A DNA stretch of 64,000 bases from Piper betle (Eukaryota; Streptophyta; Magnoliopsida; Piperales; Piperaceae), in the NCBI GenBank assembly GCA_033002965.1, contig JAURVB010003142.1:62001-126000 (forward strand), read 5' to 3'. Within the stretch, counting starts at the first letter, position 1, and every line of letters begins with the position of its first letter. Below, one piece after another: positions 27,913 through 53,210 of this stretch. The position numbers and the translations under genes were made by a program. Below the pieces are notes generated by a model. The model had not been told where the DNA came from. It searched no databases and worked only from the letters and a program-made list of their open reading frames with translations.

Positions 27913-28057
27913 ATGGAAGAGGGGGTGTCGGGGGACGGCGATTCTCCAATTCCGTCGTCTTCCGACGGAGTCCGTTGTTGGAAGGGTGCTTTCCGTCCGT
28001 ATGCCAACTCCGCCCTCCACTTCCCCCGCCTCTCTCCGGGTCGTCGTCAAAAGACCT
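27913..28057 (+). other. Probable true N-terminus of YAK1-like gene, one base out of frame
   Basis: The frame from ATG 27913 reads MEEGVSGDGDS then [12 protein letters not shown], which resembles the acidic start and FxFRPY motif of plant YAK1 proteins. The exon end, however, needs the next frame ([11 protein letters not shown]) to join exon 2 ([10 protein letters not shown]). A one-base length change is needed between them. The C5 run at 28023-28027 is the likeliest place. If the sequence is correct, 27913 would be an out-of-frame upstream start and translation would begin at 28001. Confidence 0.6.
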
Positions 28058-31000
28058 GTAAGTGTTCTTGTGTATGTGTTTCTTGCCCGATTTGGTCTTT
28101 TGCCATGCAATGCTTATTTGTTCCTGGAAAACTCGATGTTGGCGACAAAAGGTTGGCTTGTTTAGGGATGCGTCTTCTAAGAGTTGGCTTTTTGTTTTTG
28201 TTGTATGTTGAGTGCGGTTTTTACTTCGAAAGTTCGGTTCTTTGTTGTTGTTTTTCTTAGTAAAAGAAGCAAATTTAAACGCTGATCTGAAAGGCGGTGG
28301 CTGACTAGTTAATGATGAGTGATGTCCCAGAGGGATTGGTTAATTGACTTGGTTGCAGCTTGAAAAACAAGTTTGGAACTGCCCGTTAGCTCCTGTGTAC
28401 AATTGTTGTGTGATCCTCCCGGACGGGGTGAAAAGCATTGTGCGCTCTGTCCAAACTTTCATTGCTGGGATGAAGTAAAAAATTGGGCTTGTTCATGTAC
28501 ATGCTTGAAGCCCTTTAGCAGCTTCTAGGATAAATCAGAATTGCAGTTTCAGTTAAAGGTGTTCAATGAGCTACCACATGATGCAATAATGCTTCTTCTT
28601 TCTCTTTTTCTTATCTCTTTGCTATCACTGATTGTCTTTAAATTTGTTTGCATCATTCTTTTTTTATAGCATCTGGTTCTCTTTGAATAGTTACAACTTC
28701 AAGGCCTCGTTTTTGTGCAGCTTTTGGCGAGATTGACGAAAGATATTGTTGAAACCTATACTACTTGTAATCCAGAATTCAAATATTCCGAAGCAAATAA
28801 CCCAAAAAGGTTTCTCACAAGTCCGTCCATTGGATTGAAAAATGAGGGCTGCGATAATGTGAATTCAGATCTCATCTTAAGTGTGAACTATGTTCTCATC
28901 AATGACTTCCAACAAAGGTAGGGTTTTATCTTGTCCTTTATTCATGTTTCATGAATTCAGAGTTAGATTCCTTATTGTATGTATTTTCTTTGTGTTATAT
29001 GGATAATTTTCGTAATAAAAAATATGACATGGTAAGAAAAAGGAGCCACATTTAAATCCAGTATTTTGAAGAGTTCATCTGAGTGGAGCGAAGGGGGAGG
29101 AAGGGGTTTGTTAAAATCTAATTGTCTGCCGATTTCAGCCCTATCAGATTTGTTGCTTCCCTATATTTTTGTGAAATTTTTAAAATGACTGCTGAGAGCA
29201 CATCTCTAATTGATGTTGCTGAGCCCCCTAATTCTTTCAAGGTTCTTTTTCATTACCTATATTTTTGTGGTAGTCCCCCAAATTCAGTCGTGTTGCTCAT
29301 GCAATGAGTTTCTCAGTATTTCATTATGTTTTGTTTATAAAATCATACATTGCATCACAGTTCAATGTAAACTATTAACTGCTTGACATATGAACGAATT
29401 TGAGAATCACCATTGTCCTTGACTCCCCCATGACACCTCTAACGTGTTCATGTCATGGACTTTGGACAACTGTCTTATTCTTCTTGTAATTAGCTGTCCA
29501 TGATATTACACATTAGACAAGAAAAACGCTCTCAATTGTAGTAGGCATTAATGGATCTGTTCCATCTCAACATGGCCACCATCTTTATGTTCTATTACTT
29601 GACTTGATTGGAAGAGAGTGATGGATGGTGAGGATAGGTGGAAATGCATTCCTGCTTTTATTATATTTATTTAAGTGGTTTTCTATTCTGTAACAAGTAA
29701 AACTGTCTTCACTCCCGACAGTGGAAATGGGAATGGACTCATGGGAGACCTTTGAGATTCTCAATGTAACAGGATAATTTGAATCATTTAATTTGTCTGT
29801 TTGGGATTGCATCTAGTAGAATGGTTGATATGGCTGACCATGTCAACTATTATATACCCCATAAATTTAATTAATTACCATCATGTGAAAAAATTAATAG
29901 GGCACTCACTTTGTTAAAATGTGGTGGTTGCATGATTAATTTAAACCATGAGGGGCTGCAAATGATATTTGTGTGAAAATATTTGAGCTGAGTACAGCTG
30001 GCTAGCACTCCCTTCCAATTGTCATACGTCACACGCTACTTAGGGACAGGCAGTGTGCCTTGCTTCTGAAGGTCATGCCTTACTTTTTACTTAACCATTC
30101 TTAAAGTGTTTTTGAAGGAGGTACTGAATGTATCTGCAAGTTCTGCTTTTAAATGTTGGGATGTGTGGGTATCAAGTCGATTTGACTTGCAAATGATGGC
30201 AGATCTATAAGTAACTGGAACAATGATGATAACTATCTTTGTATGTAATCAGGTATATTGTCAAGGATATTCTTGGCCAAGGGACATTTGGACAAGTTGC
30301 TAAGTGTCAGGTTTCAGAAACTGATAATTATGTTGCTGTCAAAATCATAAAAAATCAACTTGCGTATTACCAACAAGCAATTGTGGAAGTGATGATTCTG
30401 AATATGGTAAATGTGATTGCTGCTTTTTTTTATTTGTTATTCAAAAAGCTACCCTGAACTGAAAAGTGATTTTCAATCTGCAGCTGAACACAAAATTTGA
30501 CCCTGAAGACAAGAATCATATAGTTCGTGTTCTTGATTATTTTATGCATCAAAGTCACTTATGCATCACATTTGAAATGCTTGGATCAAATCTGTAAGTT
30601 GAATGCCTTCTTCATGATAATTTTATTTGAACTTCAAACAAATATTAGAATTTGATGGATGTAAAAGTTTTTTATGAGCTTCTTGTTATGTTTTACCCAG
30701 ATACGAACTTATACGGCATAATTCATTCAAAGGATTGCCGCTTAGCATCATCCGAGACTTCTCTAAGCAGGTTTCATCTAAAAATAGTGATGCTTCGTGC
30801 ATGCCCATTTTTTGTGGAACCACTGTCAGAGAAATATATATTGAAATATTATTTTCCTTCTGGTATTTAACTTGCTAGATTCTACGAGCATTAGTTGTAA
30901 TGAAAGAAGCAGGTGTAATCCATTGCGATCTCAAGCCAGAAAACATTCTAATGTCAACCAGGTTAGATGTTTGCCATTATTATCGACTGCTAGTGTTGCT

Positions 31001-34000
31001 TTTGTTCTTATGTAAGTTTGAAAGTTCTGGTCTCTGCCACACAGATTGAATCAGCCAGAAGTTAAGATTATTGATTTTGGGTCTGCTTGTTTGGAGAATC
31101 AAACAGTTTACTCCTATATTCAGGTTTGTCTTTGACAAGAGTTGTTATTTCATGAACTATACATGACATGACTCATTCTGACTCTGTTGATCATTCCTTT
31201 TCATTCCCCTGTTCTACAGAGCCGCTACTACAGGTCACCTGAAGTTCTTCTTGGTTACCCGTATCCTTGAGAATGTAATTTATAGTTGTTACCGTATGAA
31301 CTTTTTCTGCCTCCAATAGGGAATCTAGTTGTTCTGCTTGACCAAATTCACCAGATATACCACTGCCATTGATATGTGGTCTTTTGGATGTGTTGTTGCT
31401 GAGTTATATCTGGGGCTTCCATTGTTCCCAGGAGCTTCAGAGTATGATCTTCTTAAGAGAATGATTGACACTTTGGGGTATACATTTCTTACTCTTTAAT
31501 TATGAAGCTTTGTTGTAACTATGTAACTATTTTCCAGTCTAAAAGCATGCAAACACAATCTAACATTGAGTTAGTATTTGTGTCTTTCCACATTCTGCTT
31601 TCTGAATAGTCTCTTTATGTATCATCGGATAGGGAGCAGCCACCTGATCATATGTTGAGGGTTGCAAAAAATACTAATAAGTTTTTCAAGCATGTTGGTG
31701 GTTTCCATCACTTGGTCGAAGATGATGTAAGTAGGAGGGGAAGAAATGCCTATCAGCTACTATCTATAGAAGAATGTGAAGCTGTAAGTTTTCTTTCTCC
31801 AATGAAATTAGTAAAGGTATGAAGTGGTAATGTGTAAAATCTCACTTTATTCCTGGCCTTCTATTGCTAGAGAAACACAAAGAAACCAGTGATGGGAAAG
31901 CAATATTTCAATTTTGTGAAACTCAACGATATTGTGAAAAACTATCCTTATCGGAAGAATCTATCAGATGAGGAGATGTCAGAAGGTTTGTTTTCAACTA
32001 ATTGCTGTACTAATAGGGACTGGTTTTATATTCTATTAATCTGATGGAGGTGGACACTTTGTTGTTTCAGAAAACCGTAGTCGTTTGGCATTGATGGATT
32101 TTCTTAGGGGTCTTGTAGAATTTGACCCAATGAAGCGGTGGTCCCCTATGCAGGTAATTGTTTGATTATGTTGGGCATTATTTAAGATTACTTTTGTTAA
32201 TTTAATCAAAGTGATGCATCTATTGTATTTATGTTACACAGGCAGTGCAGCATCCTTTTGTCACTGGTGAACCTTTTATTTGCCCCTACAAACCTTCTCC
32301 TGAGACCCCTCGCATTGTAAGTATTATCATGTATGCCTGTTGTCAGTTTTTAATATCAATGCTTTAATCACTTTACCTCACTTTTGCTTATTATTCTCAA
32401 ACCAGTTTGATCAATTATGCTTCTATTTGAATGAAAGTCGTATGAAAGTTGCATTTTGATGATCTGAACTTTCTGTACTTAGCATATGGGTCAGAATGTT
32501 CTGGTGGACCACAATCCTGGGGGAGGTCACTGGTTTGCTGCGGGACTGTCTCCTCAGGTTGGTGTTTTTTTATGTTATTTGAACTATATTTCTGTTTCTA
32601 TTTGAATTTGTGTGGAGAAGGCATGCCGAATGATGGAGTTTCGATGGATATCATATAGACTGAACTAATGTAATAAATCCACAACCCAAATCCTATCTAG
32701 ATGGTCTAACCACTTGTCCCAAAAGCTCAAGCTATTAGGAAAGGGAACCACTAAATATTTACTTAAACACTCTCCCTCACGTGCAAGCAAACTTTTTAAG
32801 CTTAGCATGTGAACAAACACAAACACAGGGTATATAGTCCATTGGTAATAACATAGGGTAAAATAATATTTCTCCAATTATATATAGCCAAAGGGATTCA
32901 AACCTTAGATGGTCTAACCATGGGGTACTAGTACCATGTAAATTTTAGATAGTTTAACTATTTGTCCCAAAAACTCAAGTTATTAGGAAAGAGAACACTA
33001 AATATTTACTTCAACACTATCATTTAACTTTTTGCCCCCCATACCCAAACGTGAGCATTTACTAACCCGAATCGAGCCATTTAAATCCTATTAAACAATG
33101 AATAGCTGAGTATTTGGTTCCTCATTACTATTGGTACAACGGTGTAAATCATTTGAATGCCCACTTAACCAGCACATAACAATAAGATCTACTGGCTTTT
33201 TTGAAAGTGTATATTGTATGCTATAGAGAACCAAATGAGCAACTAACATGATCCATAACATCACAATGTATACAGTAATCTAACTTTTACTCCGGGCAGC
33301 TTAAATATATAACGAGATTCAACAACCAGCAACTAGAACCTAACCACAAAAAGAAAGTGCCGATAATGAGCATAATTATTTCAAAAATCGTCTAAAAAGA
33401 TACATTATAGATGAATATAAACTGTATAACATATTTTAGAGCAACGGGGATACTTTTTGGGAGTGGTTGACCAATGGTTCTTGGCAAAAGCTGTACACCA
33501 AACGCTTAAGAATGACGTGATCTCCAAAAGAAAGAGACAATGGTAAAATAAAGGACAGAGAGGTCATACTCCTCAAATGAGGTTCCAGTTGAATATAACT
33601 CTGCAAAAGGAGCTTCATAGTCAAACTGAAACCTTCACTTCACATCTTTTATGATGGTCGTTGTCAACAAGGCAAAGTTGTCATAGACGGAGCAGAGCAT
33701 GAGAAGGGAAGAAGTGACAGAGTAGGGGAAAGATTCTACACGTAGTCAGGATAGCAACAGACAGCAATGGTGCGCTCAACAGTGGAGATGCTGTTAAAAA
33801 CAGTCTGTTTTATAAAATATCCTTGGCGTGACTTTTATGAGCTCTTCCAATTTAATGGTATGGTCCTGTGTTGATATTGTGTGTGCTTGTGAAATGATAA
33901 GAATTGCTCTTCCTGATTAGTTAGAGAAAACCCAAAAAAGTGTAGAAAATATTGACTCACGGCCACTATCTTAGACAATGCTATGTCATGTTAAAATATG

Positions 34001-36083
34001 CAATTTCTGAAAATCCCCTTCGTGGTGATGGTTGCGTCCATCTGAAATAGAGTTTGCTCCCCTGTTCATAATCTCCAAGCTGAAGGTTGGTTTTATTACA
34101 AGCTGATAAAGCCGAGCTCAAGCTGTGTAGAACTCTGCAGAACTTGGCTTCTTGGCACCCAGAGAGAAATTTGGGAAAGGCTTCACAAAGAAGCTTTAGA
34201 TACTATATGCTTTGATGCTCATTGCAACTTGTGCTATCACATGGCATGTTACCGATTTTAATGTTTTATTTTTGACATCTATGTACCTCCATTTTCAGTT
34301 TTACACCATTTTGAGCAGGTTTTTGTTTTGTAACCTGCTTAGGTTGCGAAAGTTAGCAAAGGCTATGTGCAAAACAGTTCTCAGTATCAGATGACCCCTG
34401 CTTGTCATGCTAGCAGTTATGGAAGTTTAGGAAGCTATGGAAGCTACAGTGAAGGACTTGGCCTTGGAGGAAGCTGTGGAAGTTATGGTGATAGTGGATT
34501 TTACGGATGCCATTCATCCTTTCTTGGTCATTCTGGTATGAGCATTCACCATCCTGGCGTGTCAGTCTTAGGTGTGAGTCCGGATGCTGCAAGGTGGAGA
34601 AATCAGCACATACCTCTTGGCAATGGCTTTGGTCCAAGTCCAGCTGGTGGATCTGTTCTTTGTTCAATGTCCCTTGGAGCTAGTCCTTCACAATATACTC
34701 CACCCAACTCTCAAATACAATTTTCAACTGGTTCTCCAGGGAAGTATTCGTCACCATCTTCTCCTGCAAGAAGCAGTGTAACTGGTATTCAAGGCTCACC
34801 CCTAGCCAAGGGAGCTACATCAAGCCACTTTCATGGAAGAAGGAACTTGGGATATAATCAAGGGGCTTCATTTATGCAACATCAAGAAGATAACCTCATC
34901 ATTCAACATTTTCATGGGCATAAACTTGATGCCACTAAGTGGAGTCATCTCCCTGATGGAAATGCTCATGGTGGGCATGTGACTTCTCCTCGAAGCGTGC
35001 AGCCAGCAAACCCTATGAGTCAGAGCTGGAGGCCACAGAAGGGTGGAAAAGGTGCTTCTGCAGGGTTATCTGTATGCCTTCATCACCAAGACAATAACCC
35101 ATTGTCCATTACTCATGACTCTCAGGGCACTTCATCCTCGGAGCATTCAGATAAATTGGAGAATAATTCCTCTCCACCAGATCCAGGGGATTGGGATCCC
35201 AATTACAGGCACATCTCGAGTCCTTGACCAATTTCTACCTGCTACCTTTTAAGTCTATGCAGCATAATTTTAATAAGACTTACAAATTTGTTTATTTTGA
35301 TCCAGTGATGAACTACTATTGCAAGATTTGTGTGTGGATGTGAACCATCTTACATCTGGCATTGTAAATGGCTTGCATCTTGGTCAACCTTCAAACTCCT
35401 TTTCTCAAGCAAGTGGAGGAGCAAGATATGATCATGGAAGCATCCGCACACGGGCTGAGTCAAGCACTTCAGCTTCAAATCGAAGGTGGCATGCATTTAC
35501 CATCCAATGCTTTATAGTCATTTTTTAAGCCTCCCCCAACCTAAAATAATGATAGCTTTAAAAATAAATAAATAATTACAAACCGTACTATGAAAATATC
35601 TATATTGACATGAATAAAGATAAGAATGTATGTATTGGTGGATTGCCAGGACAAGTATGGGGATGTCACTGTATCCACAATCTACTCCCAATATGTTATA
35701 TGAGACAAGTACTTGCCATACTTCACGACCTAGTGCAAATCAGCCTTCAGTGTCACATTTTGTGACACATGTCTTGCCACAAAATTTGCCAAGTCGTTTC
35801 AGTCAGCCGCAGCAGCAATCAACTAACCGATCACAGTTTGGCCATGATCATTCTTTAGTTAGCCGTGGTCAGACTGCTACATCTGGTTGTAGCTCCACTG
35901 GCCCTACACATGCAACCGCACGCAGTGCGTTTACTGGTGGTGGCATGTATTGGGGTAAGTTTTCAATTAACATTTGTGGTTCAAATTCATGTGTTTTAGC
36001 TGGTGTATTTTCTTTTTTTTTCATATTTGGAACCTATATTATTTTCTGGTTTTGAAATGGCAATTACAGGGAAGAGAAGATAG
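28001..36083 (+). CDS. YAK1: YAK1-like dual-specificity (DYRK-family) protein kinase
   Basis: Eighteen exons encode about 925 residues, similar in length to plant YAK1, a DYRK-family regulator acting with TOR and ABA signalling. Exons: 28001-28057, 28721-28917, 30253-30406, 30484-30593, 30701-30770, 30879-30961, 31045-31123, 31220-31260, 31355-31477, 31633-31783, 31871-31985, 32071-32153, 32242-32316, 32483-32557, 34343-35208, 35306-35485, 35650-35954, 36070-36083. Exon phases agree throughout. Kinase motifs: GQGTFGQV (about 92-99), AVK lysine (114), HCDLKPEN (211-218), DFG (234-236) and the DYRK activation-loop YSY (246-248), then SRYYRSPEV. The C-terminal half is Ser/Gly/Tyr/Gln-rich, starting [11 protein letters not shown], and contains DPGDWDPNY. 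The first exon is odd: an FRPY-containing frame from ATG 27913 resembles the YAK1 N-terminus but is one base out of register with SLRVVVKRP. The in-frame ATG is 28001. Intron 15 has a GC donor. Intron 14 is 1.8 kb. The terminal mini-exon is the least certain part. Confidence 0.93.
32558..34342 (+). other. Long intron 14 of the YAK1-like gene
   Basis: The intron has GT and AG ends. It holds two diverged copies of a block, 'acttgtcccaaaagctcaag...ctaaatatttact', at about 32690-32780 and 32925-33025. This is a type of sequence that looks repeat-derived. No coding region is seen. Confidence 0.6.
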
Positions 36084-38029: not shown

Positions 38030-41000
38030 TTAAAGAAGATGCGTACCGTGCATGCATTTGACAAAGTAGTCGAATGCAGGAATGCACATCCCTTTCTGCA
38101 TCATGCCAGGGGAATGCTGTTGATATGCGAAAAAAGATAAGTAGCGTTTGTCAGGATGATTTTTGGGCTTCGCCATCTCCACCATCTTGCTGAAACTTTC
38201 CCTGTCATAGCAAGGAAGGACATTCTGACCAGCTATACTCAAACCCCGGTCCCATGCACAATTGATCACCTGACCAGAAGAGGAAAAGGATTTGAGAACA
38301 ATTGTTGCTACATTAAATGCAACTGAGGACAGCAGTAGATATCACCTGCCAACACAAAGCTTCTAAATCAGCCGATGCCTTGATTTCAGAAAACGACATA
38401 GGCAATCCTGAGCACACAAACTTAACAGTGGCTGAATACTTCTGAATTACATCAAAAATTGGAGAATAGCCATCGTGATTTACAGGATTATAAATTCCAG
38501 CTGTGAGTTCTGCTGCATGGCTACAAGTTTGATACCACCAGAAAACTGCAGGAATCTGCACAAGCAAAACGCAATTTACTCTCCTCCAAACTATACAAAC
38601 TAAAAACTGCCTATATGACCTCAAAATACAGAATGATATTAATATATCCATCATAATACTCTACATCCTTCAAGACGAGCAATATAAGATGTTACAGGTT
38701 TCCTGTTGTAATTATACACTTTCCCTGTTGGCCTTTCGTGGCACCACACTATCCAACAGAATATGTTGTCTATGTTTCACTCTACTACAAGCAAAATGAC
38801 TTCTCAGATCTACCAAACCTGCAAGATCTACACTAATCTTGTCAAAAAATGCCATTCCTTTTCTAGACAGAATTACCTTTCACAATCCTTTAATGGCTAG
38901 GTTGTCACTAAGATCACCTTGAGAAACCAAAATTTATCATTCATTTAAAAGACACAACCAAGGGCATCCGGCCATCTAAAATTTTGTCATTTGTAATTGC
39001 ATAAATCTTAGTTTATGATCCATGCTCCCAACACTCTTTGGGAAAGGAGGAGGAGGGAGGAGATTTAAAAGACACAACCAGTACCTATTATAACTAATCC
39101 TGTTGGATACATGAGAAGAAAGAACAACCTCGACAAATAAATGAACAATGAGAAAAAAAGAAGACATTTAATAATTCAATACAAAGGGGCGACCACTGCA
39201 ATTCACAAACCAAGAGCCATCACTGATTAAATCAGACGTACAAGATAATGTATTCCATCACCATGATGAATCAATAACCCTTCTGCACAATACTTAAACC
39301 ACCATCAATAATCGTTCTACACAAAATTCTTGATAAACACTGTAACAATCACATCCCTGGAAACTAACAACATGCAAGCTATGTAAGGAAAAAATAAGAC
39401 TGACAATGGACATGTACGATATCCAACACTTACCATGCTGCTTGAATAATCAAAGAACACACTGAAGGAACTTGTAGTCATCTAAAATGTTAATGGACAA
39501 CACATTATGAATGCCTTAACATGCAGTTCATCCACTTTCTCACTGTCTACCAGCCAATATTTAACACCCAAAGCCGGGTTCTGTTAGTCACTACCCACTG
39601 GCACTCACCTTTCCATTAAGGCACGTAATCTCAAATCAAAACATCAACTAGGCTACATAAACCAAAAAATGTTGTCATAAATTATCTAGGTTGTTCAGCT
39701 GAACACTACGCACTCAAATGCTCTCACAAGTTTTTCCAAAACAGAGCATATGAAGGGGGAAAAAACACAAACGTTCAAGACATACCTTAACAACTATTTC
39801 TATATCTTCAAATGCAAGGGTTGCAAGAGATAAAACATGATCAGCATGGTCTATAAGAGTTCTTGTATACCAACTAAGGAAGAAGCGCCCATAGTAACTG
39901 TCATAGTCAACCCCGATTACAAAAATCCAGTCTCATCAGGCATTGAATTATACTGTCCAGCATTATCTGGCCCTCGAGCCCAGAATGTGTGGCCACGTAA
40001 CTTTGCTGCTCTTCGAAGAGTTTGTTGCATATATTTGTCATAGCACTGACAAAGACATCATTGGTCAAAAATTAAAAGAAGCACTTTGAAAGCACTTTCT
40101 CCATATAGAACATCCAATCTCGATCCATTTATATCTTTTGATCATGCTATTTAATATCAGAAATAAAAGTACCTGGAACTCACCAACGCCAGGGTATCTC
40201 CATCCCATCCTTTCAGGAAAAGATGGGTACTTCAGCTCACCAGAAGGGCCCAAACCAATTTCAACTGCAGATATAAGGCCCTCAGCAAATAAGTCATCAA
40301 ATTCTGACCGGAAGCTTCTCATAAAGTCAAAGCACGCCTTCAAATTACATCCACATAATAATGAGAAACAAATAGGGCGGTATAAAATATAACAAGAATG
40401 AGTCATTAGACCCCACCTCTATTCCCGTTCTCCCCTTGAGAGCCCTTTCTTTGTCAATACCCCATGACAAGCATTCTGTATTTCTCCTACCTTCACGATC
40501 TGTGAAAAGATATCCTGATTCTCATTTCCAATGTCCAAAATCCACTTTGGAAGTGATATTATAGGTTCACCAGATTGATGTTGTTGGCACTCATGAAAAG
40601 CCATTACCACCTTAAACATATGCAAACAAGATGAAAATGTATTGATCATAAGATGTAAAATACATTTCCGCCAAAATATCAACAATCAATTGACCATAGA
40701 ATTGCTATAAGATAATCAGATAACACTTTAATAGTTCTAAAGGAATACTTTGAATGGGAAATTACAAATTCCCTTATCTGCCTTTCATGACCTGACAACT
40801 TCTATGTTAGCACAGATGTTTAACTTTGTTATAAATATAAATAAAATAATTCAGAGCAGATGAGTTAGATTGGAATAAGTTTATCTGAATTGCCAGGAGG
40901 CCCTGGCCTCAATTCAGCTAATTTGACCAGGTTTATCACTCAGAAGACAAGCATCTATAACACATAAATTAAATAAGGGCACCCGATGCACAAAGAGTCC

Positions 41001-43706
41001 CACATGTGCAAGGTCTAGGGAGGGGTCAGACCATAGAGGGTATTGTAGCAGCCTTACCATGCATTTTTGCACAAGGCTGGTTCCTCAACTCAAACCCGTG
41101 ACCTCTCGATCACGCACGCCAACAACTCTTACTGGTTGCTTTAAGGCTCCCCTCAACATATACATGTATCCCTCAAAAAATTTAGTTTCAAGCAGGAATT
41201 TACTTTTAGGAGGATATAAATTCTTAAAAAATTTGGATCTCTGTAATCCAAGATATAAAGACCAACATTAAGCCGATAGTGACTATCAAGAGAATTCCAC
41301 TCCTAATTAAAGTAATCAGACCTTGAAAAATCCTCATCATCGATTTCGTTTATATGTTCTCCACCAACAATTGTCATCAAACGTGCAATAAAGACACCAA
41401 ATACTAATCATAGAGTATAGACACAAGAAAACTAAATACATACAAACATTTGACAATTGATAAATAAAACAATAACATAATAAGAGTAACTATCAAGATA
41501 TTTCCAAACATTCACCTGGATTCTGAGCTTTGACTGTCTAATGATAGTAAATAGATCTCTGTATCCAGACCACAAATATTTTTGGGGACTCCAGTTTTCT
41601 ACAATACCCCACCAACAATTAACAACAACTCCATCCACATTCAAAGATTTAAGATGACTTAGCTCCTGGTTCAAGCCTTCAGGGTCAACCAACTGGCAAA
41701 AATTGTTGATAGTGCCAGCCTGCAAAAAACGAAATAATTTAAGTGGATAAACAATTAAAAGAAAGTACACTTAAGAACCTGGAGAATAAAAGACACAAGG
41801 ATATACAATTTATTGCTGCATTACAAGAATTCATATATTTCTCAACAAAAATTTACTCTGATTGATAAAGTGCACCCGACCAAATTCACCCAAGGCAAAA
41901 GAAATGTTGCAATCTTGTGAAATATCAGATAGAAGTAAAAAGACGTACCAAAGTGAAAACAACTTACAGGAAGCATCACATATACTGGTATGTGAGGGCT
42001 ACTTGAAAAGATATTATCATTCTCCCCTGATTGAACATCCGACATGAGCTGCATCCCCCAGTAAAAGAGACTATTAATAGGAAGCTCGGTCCTATGTTTA
42101 GAAATAGGGAAAACATGGTCCAACTAATAAAATCTTGCTGTTGAAGAGAACTCCACAAATATGGGAATGCCATACTCTTATTATCAAGAGGCATGAAGTA
42201 AACTCAGTTGTTGTTTTTTTAAAAAAACACCTACTTTGCATCTTAAATACGCCTACAAACCTCATTTTACATAGTCTCTCCTTTGGACACGTGCCATCCG
42301 ACCATCTTCCAAATAAAATTAGACAGTTAGACACGAAGTACAAGTAAAAAGCAACACAAAATCGTGTATTCTATTCTAAGGTATGACCATTGAACGGTGA
42401 ATTACCCAAAATTGCAAAATGTCGGTTAGAGTGGTTACCAAGTTTGTTTGTTTTTTAAAAAATACAAGTTCAATCCTTACAAGGTGAAAAAATAATATAC
42501 TACATAAGATGTTCAACCATAGCTTACTAAACGAAAGAAAACTACGTACTTGAACTGGCGGCCTCTGAATGTGCACAAAGTCAATAGGAAATTAGAATTC
42601 CCAATACGAAATCTTCTAATCCCTGCACTAATTACAGTTCCTAGTTGGAGAGTTTGCATAAATCCTAATCTAACTAACAATTTCAACGAGCCCTTAGTTC
42701 TGAAAACCGCAATTAGTAAGAAAAAAACTGAATTAGGTTGCAATCATTATTTTCCTTGCGAATCCTAATGGCAAACGAACGATCATGTGAAAGCGACAGG
42801 ATAATAATCCAACAACAAGTGAAGGAACGATTGGCAATTGTGAAGAAGAGCCTCACCGGATCGGATTCTAGACAGTCCGGGGAGTCGAGCAGAGCGGCAC
42901 TCACATACTTGTCCTTGGCATCTCTATCCGAAACAACAACGGAATCAAGAGATGCCGGCGACAAGGTGTCATCAACAACCCTGTGAACAGCTGCATCAGA
43001 ATCGAACGAAGTTCTGATGGATGGCGGTACGGCAGAAGAGAGAGGATTCTCCACAGATCTAACCGGGAACTGCGCCTGCTGAGATGCACAACATGCCATA
43101 CATGTATAACATGTTAATGGGAAAAATGGGGAGGAAGATTGGCGAGAGAGGGAAGATTGGCGAACCAGTAGCGGGGAAGGGGAAGGGCGGTAGGTGGTGC
43201 CGTCGGGGTCGACGGACCAGCCGGCCTCGCGGGCGAGGGCGGCGAGGACGTCGTTCATGTCGGCGCGGGCGGGGAGGTTGAAGTTGCCGTACTGGCGAAG
43301 GCCGGCGAGCATGCGGCTGGTGATGGCGCGCCGGTGGCGCTCGCGGAGCTTGGTCCGCTCCTTCTCCTTCTCGCGCTCCTTGCGGCCGGGCTTGGCGGAG
43401 GCGGCGGCGGCGGCGAAGCCGCGGGGGCGGCGCTGGGGGGAGGGGGTGGGGGAGGAAGGCGGGGGAGTCGAGGTGGTGGGGGGCGAGGGCGTGGTCGTCG
43501 GCGTCGTTGATGATGCAGGTGATGGCGTCGACGGAAGCGTCTTCTTCGTCTTGACCGTCTTCGGCAGCGGCGGCGGCGGCGGCCATGGCCATGCCGATGG
43601 GGAGTAGGGCGTTGGGATGGTCGGTGGTGGTGCTGCTGTTGTTGTTGTGGTTGTAGGCGGCGGTGGTGGTGATGTAGTGGGATGCAGAGTGGCCGCCCAT
43701 CTCCAT
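38030..43706 (-). CDS. BZR1-BAM protein (beta-amylase-like transcription factor, BAM7/BAM8 type)
   Basis: Nine exons (minus strand): 43706-43166, 43078-42857, 42048-41968, 41719-41516, 40610-40417, 40337-40173, 40045-39786, 38555-38346, 38269-38030. Exon 1 has a poly-Ala/Asn/His leader, then the BZR1 DNA-binding domain ([47 protein letters not shown]). Later exons encode a glycosyl hydrolase 14 domain ([79 protein letters not shown]). In plants such proteins are nuclear regulators linked to brassinosteroid-controlled growth. The first catalytic Glu (GELKYP) is present, but the second (active enzymes have CLEM) is replaced in VKFVCSGLP, so catalysis is unlikely. Three exons need a one-base correction: exon 1 in a C-run, exon 5 at A4 40505-40508 and exon 7 at A5 39921-39925. 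Corrected length is about 705 residues. It is either a recent pseudogene or affected by sequence errors. Confidence 0.92.
43079..43165 (-). other. Intron 1 of the BZR1-BAM gene (87 nt, frame-preserving)
   Basis: The donor GTTCGC is weak and the acceptor ATCTCAG is good. Removal joins [11 protein letters not shown] to [13 protein letters not shown], the expected BAM7-like junction. The intron is 87 nt with no stop, so retention would add 29 in-frame residues. Confidence 0.6.
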
Positions 43707-45298
43707 CTCCCAATCCCCCACCCCCCCCCAAACTAAACTTCAGTTGCCCTTTTTTGCTTTTTTTCTTTGCTTTTCAGAGTTAAAAGGGCCATTTTTCATC
43801 TTAATCTATTATAAATAAAATTCCACTCGGTAAATAAATCTAACCTATCTTTTATCTTTCTGGGGCCACAAATTTATAAATTAACGTGTAATCTAATTAC
43901 TAGACTTAAAGAAAGAGCATCTCAGTCGTATTTTGGATACCCTTTAAAGCGACGAATTCTTCAAATAGAAGGTAATAAAAATTATATAAACATGATTTAT
44001 ATTTTAAAAAATTATCTCGTTAACTCATTAATTGAAATTAACAACTTATATTCTCGTAAGTTCCACTTTGATCTAGGGAGAAGCCTAAAACGTCTCATAT
44101 GCGTGAAATAAAACTATTAAAAGAGATAACTAAAATAACTATTTTTTGTACTTGTCAATACAATACGTGGGGAAAAATTAAACTTGATCATTTGGGCAGT
44201 TGTGAAGCTCGCTCCGCTCACCCGGGGGAGGTGGACTCGTTAATTAAAAGATTCTGATTGCATGCCGAGTTTGGATCGTCTGACATGCCTTTTAATAATT
44301 ACTTATTATTAACTATAAATTATAAAAATATCCGTCTCACTATAAATTATACGATTTAATGCATGACCCGACAAAATCATACGTTAAAGATTTGATCAAA
44401 AGTATTTTTTATTATTACTATATATTATGTTTTGCACTTTTACATTGTAATATCTACTTGTAATGGCAAAAAGAAAAATTCCTAAAATATTATTTACAAA
44501 GTATTGATAAGATAATGAAAATGTATTGATTTATGTACTCATTGTTTTTATTTTGCTTTGGACTAAGATGGCTTTTTTGAACTACTTTGAATGTTGTTTT
44601 TTGTATATTAATTTTTTTTCTTTATCCTCAATTTATAAATATTTTTTTAAAATAAAACAATTGGATACAATATTAATCGTTGTACCGAACAATGTGTTTT
44701 GGCGAGCATTTAATTGGAATATGACTCATTCTGCTTTTAAAAGTTTAAATTATTAATATTTGTAATATTAATTATTCATTTTTAAATGCAAAATATTAGG
44801 AATAACAGTATGTAACTACTTGATTTTGCAAGTATTTAAAATGCCCGTTAGTGCCTAATTTTACTATAAAATATTTTTTAAAAATTTTCAAAAGTTTAAA
44901 AGATCTAAAAAATATCAGCACTTACAAACGTATTATTCTATTTTAGGATTGGTTTTCAGTTTAGGGTCTGTTTGGTTAATATAAAAATAGTATACATAAA
45001 AAAATAATTTATAAGAAATATAAATATAATGAGATGAAAAGACATAAAAATTTTAAATATTTTGTTTACATGTTTGAATAATAAGAAAATAAAATAAAAA
45101 TAAAATATTTTTTTCTAGTTTTGTTACCCAAAATTTCTCTTAATTTTTTTGTTTTCCACGAAAAAATATTACTTTGTAAAATATTTGACTGGAAATAAAA
45201 TTTCCTTTGATTAATTTTTTGGACAACCAAACACAATTGAATTTTATGTTTCCACATTTTAAATATCATTTATTTAATTTTAAAACAACTAAATAAAC
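43707..45298. other. AT-rich divergent intergenic region
   Basis: This is the upstream region of the BZR1-BAM gene. The first 100 bases or so are probably its 5' UTR and core promoter. The rest is very AT-rich with no recognisable gene. The small frame at 44526-44756 is compositional. Confidence 0.45.
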
Positions 45299-45672
45299 TG
45301 TAAAACCTGTAATTCGAGTCAGAGTTTTAGGTTATCGAACTAGTCAAGTTAACTATTAGTTCGAGTCGAGTCAGTTTCATGAACCATATACTGAGTCAAG
45401 GCCAGCCGTGAGTTATGAGCGATGAGAGTCAGGTGTATCTGAATATATGATAATAATGTCAAAAAAATTGTGAGAAATGAGTTATCAGAATATATGAAAG
45501 TATGAAATATTTTTCTTTTTATACGTTTAATCATATAAATAGTTTTAAGCCGAATAACGCATTAAGACGCGTTAGATCATATTCGGGTTTCGGTCGCCAG
45601 TGACATTTCTAGTTTCAGACGCCAGTGACATTTTTGGGTCAGTTCATGTGTGAGCCAAAATGGGGTGTTACA
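45299..45672 (+). mobile_element. Internally deleted gypsy solo LTR (374 bp)
   Basis: It starts TGTAAAACCTGTAATTCGAG, like the LTR start at 54608, and ends TGGGGTGTTACA, like the end at 57505. The two ends are joined by a deletion: 'taagacgcgttagatcatattcggg' passes directly into 'tcggtcgccagtgacattt'. Flanks are TAAAC (45294-45298) and CAAAC (45673-45677), a 5-bp target duplication with one mismatch. About 2.5 kb of the 2.9-kb LTR is missing. The piece 'cgccagtgacatttctagtttcag' is followed by a second 'cgccagtgacattt'. Confidence 0.85.
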
Positions 45673-46637
45673 CAAACCCTATATTTTCTTTACCATGATC
45701 TTCCTGACCTTTTATTGTCATTTTGTTGATGTGTAAGCCGTATTTTTTCTTTCCAAGGTTTACTCTTTAAAAATAAGTATATATTATAATACAAGTTTGC
45801 AAATAAATATTTTGATAAAAGGTTTTAATTATAATATGCTATATTTTAAACTAAATTACTTGAGAAGCAAAGTATAATAATAATAATAAATACACAAATA
45901 TTATATAATATCGCACGACAGCTAGTTTTAAAATTAAATATAACTATACTATAAGGTGAGAATTTAAAAATATAATTTTGTATTTTTAAATTAAATGTAA
46001 AAATAAATAGATAAATTTACAAAAAAAGGGTATATTATCTAAATTTTATGATTTTAAGGGACTATTATATGTGTTCATATTTTAGGGTAATAAATTTGAT
46101 GAAATCATCTTTACCCTTGATCCTCAATTTTCATTTGTTTTTGTATACCATTGTTTAAAATCATTTTTAATAAAAAATTGAGGCAAGGTTGTTATTTTCA
46201 AATTTATTCACTTAAAAAATCGTAATATGGATAACAATCCCTGAACAGTAAATTTTAGAAATGAATGCCCTTTTTTCGTAAACTTTTCAAATAAATATTT
46301 ACAACGAAATTTATGAACTGTAAAACTAATCTTCTGCAACGTGCGACAAATAGGATCTACTTCGTGACAAGCTCATAAAAGATGGGAGAAACAAACAATG
46401 TTGTGGATGCTTGTCATTGAACAATCTAAAAGACCATTGTCTCTTTTGGTTTCGAAAGGCCATTTTTTGGTGTGTCAATGTTTATGTGTAATCTCATTCG
46501 TCAAACCTACCATCAATCACCTCTTTTGTGTTATCATCATTAATCAATAATCGTTGTGTGTATGTGCATAGCAATAAGATCAAGGGAAGAAGGTGATAGG
46601 ACCTGACGAGAAGATCATATACCGTAATCAGGTTGCG
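45673..46637 (+). other. Upstream region of the TLDc gene
   Basis: AT-rich sequence without a gene. The last ~100 bases before 46638 are probably the 5' UTR. No clear promoter word was picked out. Confidence 0.4.
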
Positions 46638-47882
46638 ATGGGCAACGCCCAGGCATCGCACCCCGACGACGCGGGCTTCGCCTCCGCCACCCGCAACTTC
46701 GCCGCCGCCGAGATCGAAGCCCTCGAAACCCTCTTCGCCTCCCTCGCCGCCCAGTCGGGATCGGCTGACGCCGTCTCCTCCACTACCCTCAACTCCTACT
46801 TCCGCATCCGCGGCCCCCTCGCCGATAAGCTGTTCGATGAGATCACCCAGGGGCGGCCCGACCGCCGCCTCACCTTCCGCGACTTCTTGCTCGCCAAGTC
46901 GGCCCTCGAGAAGGCCAGCCCCGCCGAGATCGACGAGTTCGTCTACCGCCTCCTCGACGTCGACGGCGATCGCCTCGTAGGCAGGTCCGACCTCCAGGCC
47001 GCTCTCGCCTCCGTCCTCGTTTCCCTCTTTCCCAACGCCGACGCGTCGGCGGCGTCCGCGGCGGCGTTCGTCGACGCCGCGGCACTTTCGGAGGCCGCCC
47101 GAGGAGGGGAGCCGGTTCTGGGTTTTGAAGATTTCAAGAGCTGGTGCCGTCTCCTACCTTCTCTGAGGAAGTTCCTTGGGAGCATGTTGGCGGTGCCGGA
47201 TTCGGGGAGGCCGGGATTCCAAGTGCCGCATCTGCTCCATCCCGACCATGTCGACCCGGACTCGCTTCTCATGAAAAAGGAGTTCGCTTGGCACATCGCC
47301 GGAGCCCTCCCGTCGGAGCGGACGGGACAGTGGGAACTGCTCTACAACAGCTCCGTGAACGGCCTGAGCTTCAACACCTTCTTGGGCTGCGTGGGGCAAG
47401 CGCCGACGGTCCTGCTCATCAAGGACCGGCAAGGGTGGGTGTACGGCGGGTACGCATCGCAGCCGTGGGAGAAGCACGGGGACTTCTACGGCGACGTCAA
47501 GTGCTTCCTCTTCCAGCTGTACCCGCGGGCATCCTTGTACCGGGCGACGGGGTTGAACGGCAACTACCAGTGGTGCGCCGCGAATTTTAGCTCCGAGAGC
47601 ATTCCCAATGGGATCGGGTTCGGGGGGAGGGTGGGCCATTTTGGGCTGTTCGTTGCTGGGAGCTTTGATCAGGGGCACTCGTTTGTGTGCACCACCTTCA
47701 ACAGCCCTTGTCTCGGGGAGAGTAGCAGGATATGGCCGGAGGTGGTCGAGTGCTGGGGAGTGGAAGCGGTGAAGGAGAAGGATGATCTTCATCCTCCTCA
47801 TCTGAAAGGAACCGTGCTCGAGAGGTTCAAGGAGGATCGTCATATGCTTAATATGGTTGGACTTGCCAATTCTAGTGAGTGA
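46638..47882 (+). CDS. TLDc-domain protein with EF-hand-like N-terminal part
   Basis: One intact, very GC-rich exon of 414 residues. The first ATG in frame is 46638 in a good context (GCGATGG). The upstream extension of the frame has no ATG. The protein begins MGNAQAS, a good N-myristoylation signal, so membrane attachment is likely. Residues about 20-170 are helical, with an EF-hand-like loop DVDGDRLVGRSD at 107-118. The calcium ligands at loop positions 1, 3 and 5 are Asp, and position 12 is Asp rather than Glu. The TLDc domain spans about 209-376, with AWHIAGALPS, WELLYNSSVNGLSF, PTVLLIKDRQGWVYGGY, GDFYGDVKCFLFQL, NGIGFGGRVGHFGLFV and TFNSPCLG in the family order. TLDc proteins elsewhere protect against oxidative stress or regulate V-ATPase. 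The role in plants is little known, so no specific function is claimed. Confidence 0.93.
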   Translation: MGNAQASHPDDAGFASATRNFAAAEIEALETLFASLAAQSGSADAVSSTTLNSYFRIRGPLADKLFDEITQGRPDRRLTFRDFLLAKSALEKASPAEIDEFVYRLLDVDGDRLVGRSDLQAALASVLVSLFPNADASAASAAAFVDAAALSEAARGGEPVLGFEDFKSWCRLLPSLRKFLGSMLAVPDSGRPGFQVPHLLHPDHVDPDSLLMKKEFAWHIAGALPSERTGQWELLYNSSVNGLSFNTFLGCVGQAPTVLLIKDRQGWVYGGYASQPWEKHGDFYGDVKCFLFQLYPRASLYRATGLNGNYQWCAANFSSESIPNGIGFGGRVGHFGLFVAGSFDQGHSFVCTTFNSPCLGESSRIWPEVVECWGVEAVKEKDDLHPPHLKGTVLERFKEDRHMLNMVGLANSSE

Positions 47883-48597
47883 TTATTATTGTCTCGACGG
47901 CAATGGTTCCCTGTGGTATATATAATTCGATGACATTCTCTGTGAATTACTTGTTTACATTGTTCATTCTTCTGTGATAATTGAATCTTATTACATTTCA
48001 ATGTGTAAAAGATTGCCTATATTGAGACGTGCATCACTTCATTTATGTTGAGTTTGTTTACAAAATTAGATGATTCAAGCTTAGTTTAGTATTGAAAACA
48101 ATTTGAGATCGAAACTTGTGTTTCATCGATGTGTTTTGTTGAAGTATTTATATAAGAGTTTGGGGATCAAACACTACATTAGTGCTAGTAAAAAGGGCTA
48201 AATATTCAACAACTAATTACTAGTCTATAGCTTGTTGCAGGGGAGACAACAAAATACCGAACATAGACATGATTTTAGTATTCACCATTTTAGGGTCTAT
48301 ATTTGGGAATGAGAAAAGAGGGAAAAAACTGTGAAAGAAGTTTTTATTTTTTTCAACTTTTTTGATTTACATAAAAATATATGAAAACTGTTATTTAGTC
48401 GAAGAGAAAATCCTTTTAGATGCAGATTATATTTACACCTTCCAAGCTGCCGAGTCGCCATCCTCGCTTATTAAAGATATTATCATCCCCAAAACATTAG
48501 TGCTGATAATAATAAGCGGAGATTAGGACAAGATGCATAAGAGAGTCGGTTTTAGTATTTTCCAACGGTCACATACAGCAATGCCAAAAGAGCGTGA
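47883..48597 (+). other. Intergenic region between the TLDc gene and the next gene
   Basis: It probably contains the TLDc 3' UTR and the promoter of the following gene. No further gene or repeat is seen. Confidence 0.45.
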
Positions 48598-49332
48598 ATG
48601 GAATGCGAAACGCCTCCTCTTCTAAACAACCCCCGCTCGCTCTTCCCTTCCGACCTCCCATTCACCTCTCCAATGGCGGACTCCGACTCCTGCTTCTCGC
48701 CGTTGAGCTCTGACGCCCACTCCGACGTCGAAAACCTTCTTGCCCAAGCAGCCGACCTCCACGCTCTGGAGCAGATCGCCGCTCTCAACACTTGCCACTT
48801 GCCGGACACCGCCCTCCCCTCCCACCTGGAGTCCCGCTTCCTCCGCCTCAAATCCCTACCCACCCCTCTCTTCCCGGCCGTCCATGGCGATGCCGAAGCC
48901 GACGACATCGTCCGCCGTCATTCATTCGGCAGCGAGGAGGTGAAAGTCGCGGTGATGGATAGCCCTGCTCCCCCAGTATCGTCCAAGGACGAAAAGTGCC
49001 AGAACTCGTTCTCAGCGAGTGGTGCTTCGAGTCCGGCAGTTTTGTCTCCCCCTCCTCGAAGTTCTCGACGTGACCGGTGGATGGGCCGCTTTTGGTGCTT
49101 CCCGACTAGAAGTTGTAAGAAGAAAGATGTTAAAGATTGCGAGCAAGACCTGGCTCTCGATCTTGATCATGATCGCGGCTACTGGGCCATGGGCGGCCAT
49201 ATTATATCCGGCTTTGATCAACTCTCTGTGGAAGACCAGCGCAGGAGGTTGAAGATGGTCATGAAAGAGGTAAAGAAGTCCAAACGGGAAGCCAAGAACA
49301 TCATCAAATCTGTACTGAGGGAGTATAAGTGA
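48598..49332 (+). CDS. Plant protein of unknown function, single exon
   Basis: An intact frame of 244 residues. ATG 48598 gives the longest protein. A second ATG at 48673 (MADSDSC) would give 219 residues and could be the true start. The first ~110 residues are Ser/Leu-rich with LENLLAQ-like helices (DVENLLAQAADLHALEQIAAL). The middle part is Ser/Pro-rich, followed by a Cys/Trp patch, RWMGRFWCFPTRSCKKK. The last 38 residues form a basic helix, DQLSVEDQRRRLKMVMKE then KREAKNIIKSVL. That C-terminal helix with a preceding 'CF/CFP...KKK' patch resembles a small family of uncharacterised plant proteins (Arabidopsis At1g53180/At3g15115 type), from memory and with moderate confidence. No catalytic motif, signal peptide or membrane segment is visible. 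Confidence 0.8.
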   Translation: MECETPPLLNNPRSLFPSDLPFTSPMADSDSCFSPLSSDAHSDVENLLAQAADLHALEQIAALNTCHLPDTALPSHLESRFLRLKSLPTPLFPAVHGDAEADDIVRRHSFGSEEVKVAVMDSPAPPVSSKDEKCQNSFSASGASSPAVLSPPPRSSRRDRWMGRFWCFPTRSCKKKDVKDCEQDLALDLDHDRGYWAMGGHIISGFDQLSVEDQRRRLKMVMKEVKKSKREAKNIIKSVLREYK

Positions 49333-50071
49333 AGAGGTGGATGAGTTTTTTTTCTAACAGTTAAACATACACATAAAAAAAAGACGCATACCCATTTCAG
49401 TTTTTTTGAGCTTTCAACCGGGGTTTGCATGTTACTTCTCAAGAAAAGAAATTATTGAAGAAAACATGTTTTATTTTAAGTTTTATTTGTACCATTTATC
49501 AGAAGGATAGGAGATTACATTTCTGCAACCAAGTAATCCGACATAAAGCGCATATGATCAATACAGCTCATAGTTAGCATGCCACCTCTTAGACAACAAC
49601 TGCATAAAATAATATAAATTAAACAATAAAGGAAATTGTAAAGGTTCACAATATAAGCTCTAATATACAAGAACATACGTAACAAACGAATCTCAATGCT
49701 GCATAAACAGATTGGTTCTGCATATTTACTATATATTGTCATTTGCAGTACCAGTATACGTCTATTCAAATAAATTATACATACGAGTTTGTCTAGTTTT
49801 GATCCGAGCCAGAATACGCCCATTTGAAACAATGAGAATGAAGCTCATCATTTTCTTTATTCACTCAGTGTATTTCGCTTCCCCTTACCACAAATAATAA
49901 TAGATTTTGAATTTCGGGTATATTAGAGGATCAAGCATCCAACAGCTATAACAAAAATATGAAACCAGCACACTGCTGCCTTCTCCTTGAACCATTCATT
50001 GTTTTATGCCATCAATGATAAAAAATAATTAAATAATCATGGAGGTTATTCATTCTCCATTCTTCAAACCA
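49333..50071. other. Convergent intergenic region, 3' UTRs
   Basis: The region lies between the ends of two convergent genes. It is AT-rich, with no supported coding frame. It should contain both polyadenylation regions. Confidence 0.45.
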
Positions 50072-53000
50072 TTAATTTGCAGACTTTCCTCGTCCATGGG
50101 CTTGCGCCAAAAGTGAACAAACAAAAGATAGCGTGCAATCCCACACTTCCTGCATCCGTCCTTTATTCGATTTCTGCATTTCGCAAATCAACCACTTGTA
50201 GTCTGAATTTGCTTGGTTAGAAAGGGGTTCTAAGAACTCGCACTTGGCTAAAATATCCAATGGAGGGACACCAGCTTCAAGATTTGTTTCCAGTTTAGGT
50301 TTTCCTTGTGATGATCTAAATGGTCCACATTCTACCTGTGAACCTACGATCGCAAATGGAGAAGCACCTGGTATGACTCCCTCCTGGAAAGGCAGCGCTC
50401 TAGCAGCTTGTAAGCAAAATTCGATCCACTGGTCAATAAGGGGTGATGGCCCCCTAACACGCCCACCAATCTTATTGGTGTTAACCTTATTCGCAGCAGG
50501 AACAACCTGCAGACAGAACAAGGAGAGACTTAAGGGGCTGTATTTGTACACCTGCAAACAGGCCTTATATACAACAGTACAAAGGCCTGTAGTTGTGAAA
50601 AAAATTTTCTGGAAATTACATATAATTCAAAGTAAAATAAGTATAATTTTCTCTTTGAATGGTGGAAAAAACCATTTTCTGTGTAATAACTTAGGATGAG
50701 CTCAAATAATGTGCAGACTATGTAAAGATGTTAAAATTCATGATATGCAAGAATGATTTTGGCACGTCACTTATCACAAAGCCATAAAGTGTAGCAGTGA
50801 CACAATACCTACCCAAAGATCTGCCCACAGACTAGATCCAGACTTTGGAACCACTACAACAACGTTGGACATGCGTTTGGCAGCAGGAAGCACATCGCTG
50901 CTCCAGCCAACGGCAACCCAAGCATCCCCTACTCCAAATGACTTGAGATAGTTCACGCTGTCAAATAGCCGAACCTAAAGAACAAAGCATTAAGATGTGT
51001 ATCGCATTCAAGAAATGTACTGATCCACTGTTTTCACTGAAACTTGTCAATCGTCATGCATTCGAATCATTCAAAAAAATTGTAAATACTCTATCATTGC
51101 TGGCATGATTCAAACCATCAAGAGATTGTTTGCAAATTTATGAAGACGACAATAAACCATACAGAAAAAAGGTGTCAAGATTTTAACAAGGATGCCTTTC
51201 CTCGGCAACCATCAAAAAAGTTTTCATCATCAACAACAGACACCTAGCCAAACTTACGCAAATTGATATATTTTTTGCTGAAGCTATTAATGCAATAAGC
51301 CAAGAAGCAAATCTAGAAGTACCAAGGCAAATCCCTTAGAAACTTATACCTGCCTCTGAAGCTTTTTCAACATCTCGATTGCAGACTTTTTCCCCCAGGA
51401 ACCTCATTATCAATATCCCTCGTGTTGTATGATGCCCCCATATGTTTCAGAACAGCACCAACAATTTCTCTGGGAGAATCAACCATGGAAATTTTTCCAG
51501 CAAGCTCTGGCCTCCATAAATCACACCAGTCCTGTTACAGTTAATTTATTTCCATTAGACATAAAAGACTGTTGGAGAAATAAGTAGCCCATTCACATAA
51601 AAAGGCAAAGAAATTTGAAGCCTTACAATGATAAGAGCATTTACAATTCAAAAAAACACAAGGCTTATGTGCATGATTCTTCATTTAATGTTTTATATTA
51701 CCTCTACTGGGGCCAAATTATGTTCTCTAAATTTGTTTTTCTTGTAGGCAATAACCATGCATCCCCAACGATATGGAACACCCCAAATTTTTCCATCTGA
51801 CTCCAAATTTCCACTATGATTCCTGCGCAAATGAACCTAAGAGAGATTTAAATAGCATCAAATAAGTTATAAGATAAGGTGGGCAGTTTATGGAACACAG
51901 AATGAAGACTAATTATACATTTTTGAAAGTACCAGTGGTCAAGTGATACATAAAAATACAATTTGAAAAAGTATCTTCTCAGAAGAATTTGAAAACATAC
52001 AAATTGCATCATTATCTTATCATTGATAACAAAAATTTTCCCTTCAATCATAAAGCCTACGAAAAAAAGACCTTTCAAATTCAATTTAACAATATATGCT
52101 GTCATGCTCTAGTCAAAACAATAGTTTGGATGGAACAACAGTAAAACTATCTCAAATGTAAAACACACATATGCTCATCATCTTACTTTTGCATTGCTTA
52201 GTTTCGAGAATAGCGTATTTACAATAGAACATGTCAACCACATAGCTGGTCATATGCAGTCACATACATATCTGCCTCATAATTGGCATCCACATTTCTC
52301 AATATTAAATCATACATGTATAGTCCGTTATTCATAAAAGAGCGTGAAAATATTAAAAAGTACCTTATCTCCTATAACAATAACAAAAAAAAAAGATGTT
52401 TACCTTCCACCTATCATTCAATCTCTTGAACCACTCTAACTCTTCGGCACCTTCAATTGGTTCAATCAGACCCCTGCTCAAAGCCAAACTGAGCCAAGAA
52501 TCACCAATTGTGACAAGATCCGCCGCCATGGCAGATTTGGGCATCAAGCTGCTATTTTTCAAAGCCAGAGACAGCTCAGAGAAAACACTTTCAAGCGTAG
52601 CACGGAACTCGACGTGCAGCTTCATTCTCCTCCCTTGCACTTGAGTAAACTCCTAATGATTCAAAAAGGTAATAAATTTGGCGGGGGGGGTGGGGGGTGG
52701 GGAGGGGGGTGGAAACAAAACCTATCACACTATTTTGTTAGCAAACAAACAATGAAAGAAAAAAAAGACCTTGATCCATGAGGGTGGGATTGAGCCGCGC
52801 AGGGAGACGATACGGAGAGGAACGGTTAAAGCGAAAGACTTGGACTTCCACTTCTCGAAAGCGGCCTTCATCTCTTCATCGTCTTCACCGACCAGAGACA
52901 TCGGCGCATCAGTTCCAGCCCTCGTTTGCTCACCAGCAGCATTATCTGCATCAAGTCCGGGTAACATCCAATACTCAAAATCGCGAGAACGCCCGCCGGC

Positions 53001-53210
53001 AATTGAGAGAAGAAAGGTGGATGAGGTAGGCGCGTACCGGTGGGAACGAGAGGAGGCAGGGCTGGCGGGGCATTAGTAGACGCGCGGGCGGTGCCGACGG
53101 CGAGGAAGAAGACGCCGGCGGCAGCGAGGCTGGAAAGGGACGGTGCCGGTGGGAAGGCGGGTTGTTTGGGGAGAAAGCCGAAGGGGCGGGGCAGCAGGCG
53201 CGGCGGCCAT
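50072..53210 (-). CDS. Chloroplast PotD-like putrescine/spermidine-binding protein homologue
   Basis: Seven exons (minus strand): about 53210-53038, 52945-52770, 52652-52404, 51836-51702, 51531-51350, 50974-50813, 50506-50072, giving about 500 residues. The product resembles the plant homologue of bacterial PotD/PotF substrate-binding proteins (Arabidopsis At1g31410). Exon 1 encodes a Pro/Ser/Arg-rich transit-peptide-like stretch, then a hydrophobic segment ending ARA (AAAGVFFLAVGTARA), as in lumen-targeted proteins. Later motifs are FALTVPLRIVSLRGSIPPSW, TIGDSWLSLALSRGLIEP, GVPYRWGCMVIAYKKNK, DWCDLWRPELAGKISMVDSP, GASYNTRDI, GDAWVAVGWSSDVLP and RVRGPSPLIDQWIEFCLQ. Its own ligand is unproven. 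All splice phases fit, but exon 5 (182 nt) lacks one base at the T5/C5 run 51387-51396, which introduces a stop. In exon 1 the only nearby good ATG (53210) is one base out of register. The start is therefore uncertain. Confidence 0.88.
52683..52712 (+). other. G-quadruplex-capable tract in intron 2 of the PotD-like gene
   Basis: G8, T, G6, T, G4, A, G6, T, GG on the + strand: four G-runs of four or more with single-base loops. The transcript of this minus-strand gene carries the C-rich complement. Run lengths may be unreliable given the other homopolymer problems in the window. Confidence 0.65.

Follow-up and report, generated by a model that had tools for sequence, protein, structure and literature searches.

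Three neighbouring multi-exon genes, for a YAK1-type kinase, a BZR1-BAM protein and a PotD-like protein, carry frame slips in a 64,000-nt window of Piper betle plant nuclear DNA (the window being the whole stretch analysed; Table 1). These shifts are most probably small indel errors of the assembly consensus in three genes that are themselves intact, in a plant related to Aristolochia, and the frame slips as such are most likely no biological feature. Homopolymers and C-rich first exons would be the main sites of error, and one error process, such as an unpolished long-read consensus, may stand behind all of the shifts, in which case the frames of the three genes would be unbroken in the living plant. 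Consensus error is the preferred explanation because the indels come without matching substitutions, stop codons or splice site losses. A preceding sequence-only reading had likewise set a single consensus-error process above pseudogenisation, a preference that is partly supported by the lack of stops, splice losses or an excess of changes at near-invariant residues, and by a gene order that recurs in other plants, with support that is moderate.

Table 1. Genes, exons and frame changes in the Piper betle window (+, forward strand; -, reverse strand)
Feature	Position	Strand	Description
YAK1-type kinase gene	27913 to about 36 kb	+	Frame slip in exon 1
Kinase exon 1	27913..28057	+	145 nt, ATG to donor; frame change between 28003 and 28030
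Kinase exons 2-17	28721..35955	+	One open frame as modelled
BZR1-BAM (BAM8-type) gene	38030..43706	-	Nine exons modelled, 8/8 introns GT-AG; 3' end of last exon provisional
BAM exon 1	43166..43706	-	541 nt; frame change in C-rich stretch at about 43433-43470
BAM exon 5	40610-40417	-	194 nt
BAM exon 5 shift	40505..40508	-	T4 on coding strand; one base short relative to frame of homologues
BAM exon 7	40045-39786	-	260 nt
BAM exon 7 first shift	39921..39925	-	T5 on coding strand; two bases short
BAM exon 7 second shift	39909..39910	-	One extra base, 10 bases downstream of first shift
TLDc-domain gene	46638..47882	+	Single exon, 414 aa, open; 17 homopolymers of 4 or more
244-aa ORF	48598..49332	+	Single exon, open; 9 homopolymers of 4 or more
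PotD-like gene	50072..53340	-	Seven exons, 6/6 introns GT-AG
PotD-like exon 1 suspect stretch	53275..53325	-	C/T-rich; candidate frame change, unlocalised
PotD-like 92-nt intron	Donor 53037, acceptor 52946	-	GT-AG
PotD-like exon 5	51531-51350	-	182 nt
PotD-like exon 5 shift	51387..51396	-	G5A5 on coding strand; one base short relative to frame of homologues

The BZR1-BAM gene is of the BAM8 type, with a BZR1/BES1 DNA-binding domain fused to a GH14 domain. The listed homologues carry both PF05687 and PF01373, the window exons align over both regions, and the piece encoded by exon 6 gives a Pfam match to GH14. The Arabidopsis BAM7 and BAM8 proteins are described as catalytically inactive BZR1 fusions that are kept in most flowering plants (PMC6394054). 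The reading frame of the gene is not continuous, with breaks in exons 1, 5 and 7. The frame change proposed for exon 5, an exon of 194 nt with an A4 run on the assembled strand, was recovered at that run by tblastn with three homologues. It splits the motif DIFFTDREG, of which the F residue at the cut position is present in 115 of the 120 homologues. For exon 7, the 260-nt length, the A5 run and a frame change there by tblastn all stood, while the single one-base loss that had been read from them did not; two shifts are present, with two bases lost in the run and one gained in a T2 beside a G4, outside any long run, leaving the exon a net one base short. The coding strand reads GGA TTT TT followed by GTAATCGGGGTTGAC, and the homologues share the motif GFFC[ED]RGDYD (C in 117/120, R in 113/120 and G in 120/120). 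Between the two shifts C-N-R-G is read in a third frame, and the conserved reading resumes after the second. Two shifts of opposite sign are thus called because the third frame reads the near-invariant C-x-R-G, which a single one-base loss, rejected here, would swap for four unrelated residues. Elsewhere in this gene, an N replaces the D of the Magnolia and Cinnamomum homologues within 41516-41719 (-), and the sequence QQHQSGE replaces their loop starting with GG within 40417-40610 (-).

The PotD-like (spermidine/putrescine-binding-like) protein matches its family over the mature protein; identity to a homologue from Aristolochia californica is 67%, with 88% of the query aligned. In exon 5, EVPGGK is read in one frame and KKLQRQVRLFD in the next, and tblastn with three homologues changes frame at the adjoining runs (T5/C5 on the assembled strand) where the shift had been placed in this 182-nt exon. 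A strict pattern of the EVxGG[RK]...LQRQVRLFD type fits 41 of the 120 homologues, 40 of them with one and the same length and one with an additional residue. Conserved motifs on both sides of the frame changes, as previously proposed, are accordingly supported by tblastn and by 120 homologues per gene for BAM and for PotD-like exon 5.

In the three first exons, a gain of one base and a loss of two are indistinguishable by frame arithmetic. For the kinase, the frame opened by the ATG reads GAFRPY (ending at 28002), while SLRVVVKRP is read in another frame (starting at 28031). Alignment by tblastn of two homologues gave a weak signal for the SLRVVVKRP part (E-values of 1.0 and 5.3) and no hit for the GAFRPY part, and the shift was judged by eye against the N-termini of homologues. 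Motifs like both lie within one frame in the Aristolochia homologue, again by eye, and a pattern requiring both in one frame fits 49 of the 120 homologues. The claimed shift of kinase exon 1 therefore holds as a change between two frames whose motifs are co-framed in homologues, but it was called by eye and is not assignable to a single run. An ATG at 28001-28003 (+) shares the frame of the kinase body, and translation from it could yield a kinase that is slightly shorter, despite the exon 1 shift.

Homology to the BZR1 domain in BAM exon 1 is found in the second frame only, which has no ATG upstream. The third-position GC of the ATG frame is 0.85-1.0 over most of the sequence before the C-rich stretch, apart from windows with starts at 43608-43560, where it falls to 0.65-0.75, and that of the next frame is 0.95-1.0 for about 200 bases past the stretch. 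The GC switch and the homology in the second frame bear out the shift previously claimed for this exon, while the run in which it lies cannot be singled out.

In the PotD-like gene, no ATG lies in frame with the transit-like segment LAAAGVFFLAVGTARA; a start similar to those of the homologues, MxVLPLPLSS, sits in a different frame. On the basis of these start and transit frames and of third-position GC, a frame change in exon 1 is weakly suspected; the start-like and transit segments do fall in different frames, as a shift would require, but no localised run emerges. A 441-nt form of exon 1 was rejected in favour of a 92-nt GT-AG intron, across which the transit segment runs on into the conserved part free of any shift. 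As this intron explains the downstream region, only the upstream part of exon 1 is in question. Of the exon 1 shifts, proposed to lie in C-rich runs, that of BAM falls in a C-rich stretch and that suspected in the PotD-like gene in a C/T-rich one; none of the three shifts can be assigned to one run.

These first exons bear on the highly unlikely mixed explanation that their shifts stem from faulty gene models or from real turnover of the N-termini, and that the shifts in exons 5 and 7 are errors or decay. The poor conservation of the N-termini, the in-frame kinase ATG at 28001 and the indirect nature of the evidence on PotD-like exon 1 are consistent with such a mixture. The kinase, however, keeps GAFRPY in the frame of the upstream ATG and the third-position GC of BAM exon 1 switches between frames, so coding shifts are likely in at least two of the first exons.

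Outside the shifts, the three genes have the appearance of intact coding sequences. The kinase domain is read in one frame with a YAK1-like tail, and the protein shares 59% amino acid identity with a YAK1 homologue of Aristolochia californica over the full query. The tail of exon 1 spliced to exons 2-17 contains no stop in 912 codons and is matched by homologue alignments, and an additional last exon beyond exon 17 is likely. Together with the BAM (690 codons) and PotD-like (424 codons) genes, no premature stop is found outside the shifts in 2,026 codons read in pieces. The kinase introns comprise 15 of 16 tested with GT-AG borders and one with GC-AG, while those of the BAM (8/8) and PotD-like (6/6) genes are all GT-AG, so that 29 of the 30 introns tested are GT-AG, one is GC-AG and no splice pair is lost. 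The earlier statement that splice phases are clean elsewhere is confirmed over these 30 introns. The GC-AG intron of the kinase lies at 35209-35305 (+), and its DWDPNY and SDELLLQ flanks match the homologues. Neither stops nor lost splice sites, which would mark a pseudogene, thus accompany the indels in any of the three genes.

Near-invariant residues, defined as those shared by at least 97% of the other sequences, are changed at 2/201 positions in BAM (rank 29 of 121), 0/111 in the PotD-like protein (rank 80 of 121) and 2/225 in the kinase (rank 31 of 121). The total of 4/537, made up of V to A, L to I, I to V and F to Y, is within the range of the homologues.

Three of the four closely placed shifts lie in runs of at least four bases; such runs account for 6-8% of the exonic bases. 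The shifts thus show the homopolymer concentration expected of long-read errors, and they do so without accompanying substitutions, stops or splice losses, a combination whose discriminating power is moderate. The TLDc-domain gene and the 244-aa ORF between the BAM and PotD-like genes are uninterrupted from start to stop and serve as controls; a Pfam scan of the 244-aa ORF gave no match. Runs of four or more bases number 108 in the three genes and 26 in the two open ORFs. The 26 unbroken runs of the controls count against error, while zero breaks in them fits the same event rate, which comes to about 0.8 per kb for 8.6 kb of coding sequence, with the controls and the weak PotD-like exon 1 event counted. 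Run lengths give mixed signs as to compression: no A or T run in the window exceeds 10 bases, four runs of 10 C or G are present, and AT repeats of 22-24 units survive. As these long C/G runs and AT repeats persist, a general shortening of runs is not visible.

Two further observations count against error. The two shifts of BAM exon 7 are only 10 bases apart, which would be rare from independent errors, and at least one of the shifts is a gain, while Nanopore errors are mostly losses. These observations touch on the unlikely explanation that the indels are real and recent, and that the three genes include at least one young pseudogene, for example in the homoeologous block of a polyploid of which the second copy is kept. 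Natural indels also favour runs, and the neighbouring shifts of BAM exon 7 could represent one complex mutation. Loss by decay would, however, require separate hits in three neighbours with the two ORFs between BAM and PotD-like left open, and it is countered by the absence of stops outside the shifts, the 30 introns without splice loss and the usual number of near-invariant changes.

Neutral decay was simulated with an indel:substitution ratio of 0.116, derived from 29 gap openings and 250 mismatches in five repeat pairs of the window, some of which share sequence. A sixth pair (161 bases at 80% identity or more, with 23 mismatches and 1 gap opening) stands outside the simulation; its inclusion would bring the ratio to 0.110. 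At 0.116, seven indels would be accompanied by about 69 substitutions. The joint probability under neutral decay of at most four near-invariant changes together with no stop is 0.016 for seven indels at this ratio, 0.0002 at 0.05, 0.10 at 0.2 and 0.25 at 0.3, while five indels at 0.116 give 0.056 and BAM alone, with four indels, gives 0.038. The values at ratios of 0.2 and 0.3, and that for five indels, count against error. The background changes seen in intact homologues were not added to the simulation, which is therefore lenient to decay. The simulation favours error, moderately and short of proof. Use of the repeat pairs as a meter of indel error was rejected for want of power, as natural indels swamp the expected number.

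Among the matches listed, the top-ranked homologues share 71% (BAM), 67% (PotD-like) and 59% (kinase) identity with the window proteins, and the highest identity among the 120 matches listed per gene is 74%, reached by a BAM match that covers 67% of the query. Closely related species are thus absent among the 120 matches listed for each of the three genes. In trees of hand-picked sequences, the kinase groups with Aristolochia (18 sequences; support 100), BAM does so weakly (23 sequences; support 47), and the PotD-like protein adjoins Acorus (20 sequences; support 90), a placement that is perhaps due to long-branch attraction. The terminal branch of BAM (0.321) is the longest of the 23 sequences in its tree, which speaks against error and, together with the four of the seven shifts that this gene carries, for a young pseudogene. 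The branches of the kinase (0.382, second of 18) and the PotD-like protein (0.399, third of 20) are also long, so the length in BAM is partly a property of the lineage; branch lengths are moreover blind to very recent decay.

Polyploidy in the Piperales is consistent with a homoeologous origin of such a pseudogene, as Houttuynia cordata is described as a decaploid with a duplication dated to 3.3 million years ago (PMC11415239), although this species serves as an example only. Aristolochia fimbriata is described as having had no further whole-genome duplications (PMC8445822). It is quite unlikely that the three neighbours underwent a real and near-simultaneous loss by frameshift, before substitutions accrued, in the early fractionation of a homoeologous block in a polyploid.

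The order of the genes in the window is probably ancestral, as the families co-locate in other plants by locus tags and contigs. The kinase and BAM8 locus tags are two apart in Aristolochia fimbriata, Macleaya and Magnolia sinica each have all three families on one contig, and in Bauhinia and Acacia one contig carries both BAM8 and PotD. The BAM8 gene listed for Aristolochia californica is on a different contig from the kinase and PotD homologues, and the Magnolia BAM8 closest to that of the window (71%) differs from the contig-sharing Magnolia copy (67%); both observations count against an ancestral order. The window also holds a decayed Ty3/gypsy-like element at 58484-62861 (+), with gag, protease, reverse transcriptase and RNase H matches and, by eye, an in-frame stop at 60346-60348 and a frame change near 60555-60597. 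This element carries a stop, while the three genes have none outside their shifts. A Ty1/copia-like reverse transcriptase fragment (Pfam RVT_2) is found at 12192-12491 (-), and the copies of a repeat pair of about 1.16 kb (22603-23760 and 15884-17031) share 89% identity and differ by 103 mismatches and 15 gap openings. Rfam and tRNA scans of the window gave no matches.

If the shifts are errors and about 0.8 per kb is typical of the assembly, many genes would be absent from its gene predictions or cut short in them, and pseudogenes and gene losses would be overcounted. Real shifts would make the locus a snapshot of gene loss at an early stage. Young unitary or homoeologous pseudogenes resemble this locus in showing frameshifts in a conserved gene within a conserved order, but the three genes differ from them in being free of stops outside the shifts, splice losses and an excess of near-invariant changes. 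The label 'LOW QUALITY PROTEIN' marks models over frame-breaking bases, and NCBI models so labelled exist in two of the same families, for a beta-amylase 8 of Tarenaya hassleriana and a PotD-like protein of Glycine max, which belong to other species and are compared here by name only. Indel errors in unpolished long-read assemblies were reportedly treated by Watson and Warr in 2019. In an unpolished Nanopore assembly of a bacterium, homopolymer indels are given as the main error, and 664 of 2116 aligned genes contained indels (PMC8306402); homopolymer indel errors in unpolished long-read assemblies are also described in the report on Polypolish (PMC8812927). Such cases are bacterial tests with reads, whereas the present locus is known from assembled sequence alone and, unlike them, has at least one gain beside its losses. 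It shares with unpolished long-read assemblies the small, run-biased indels that break the frames of otherwise intact genes.
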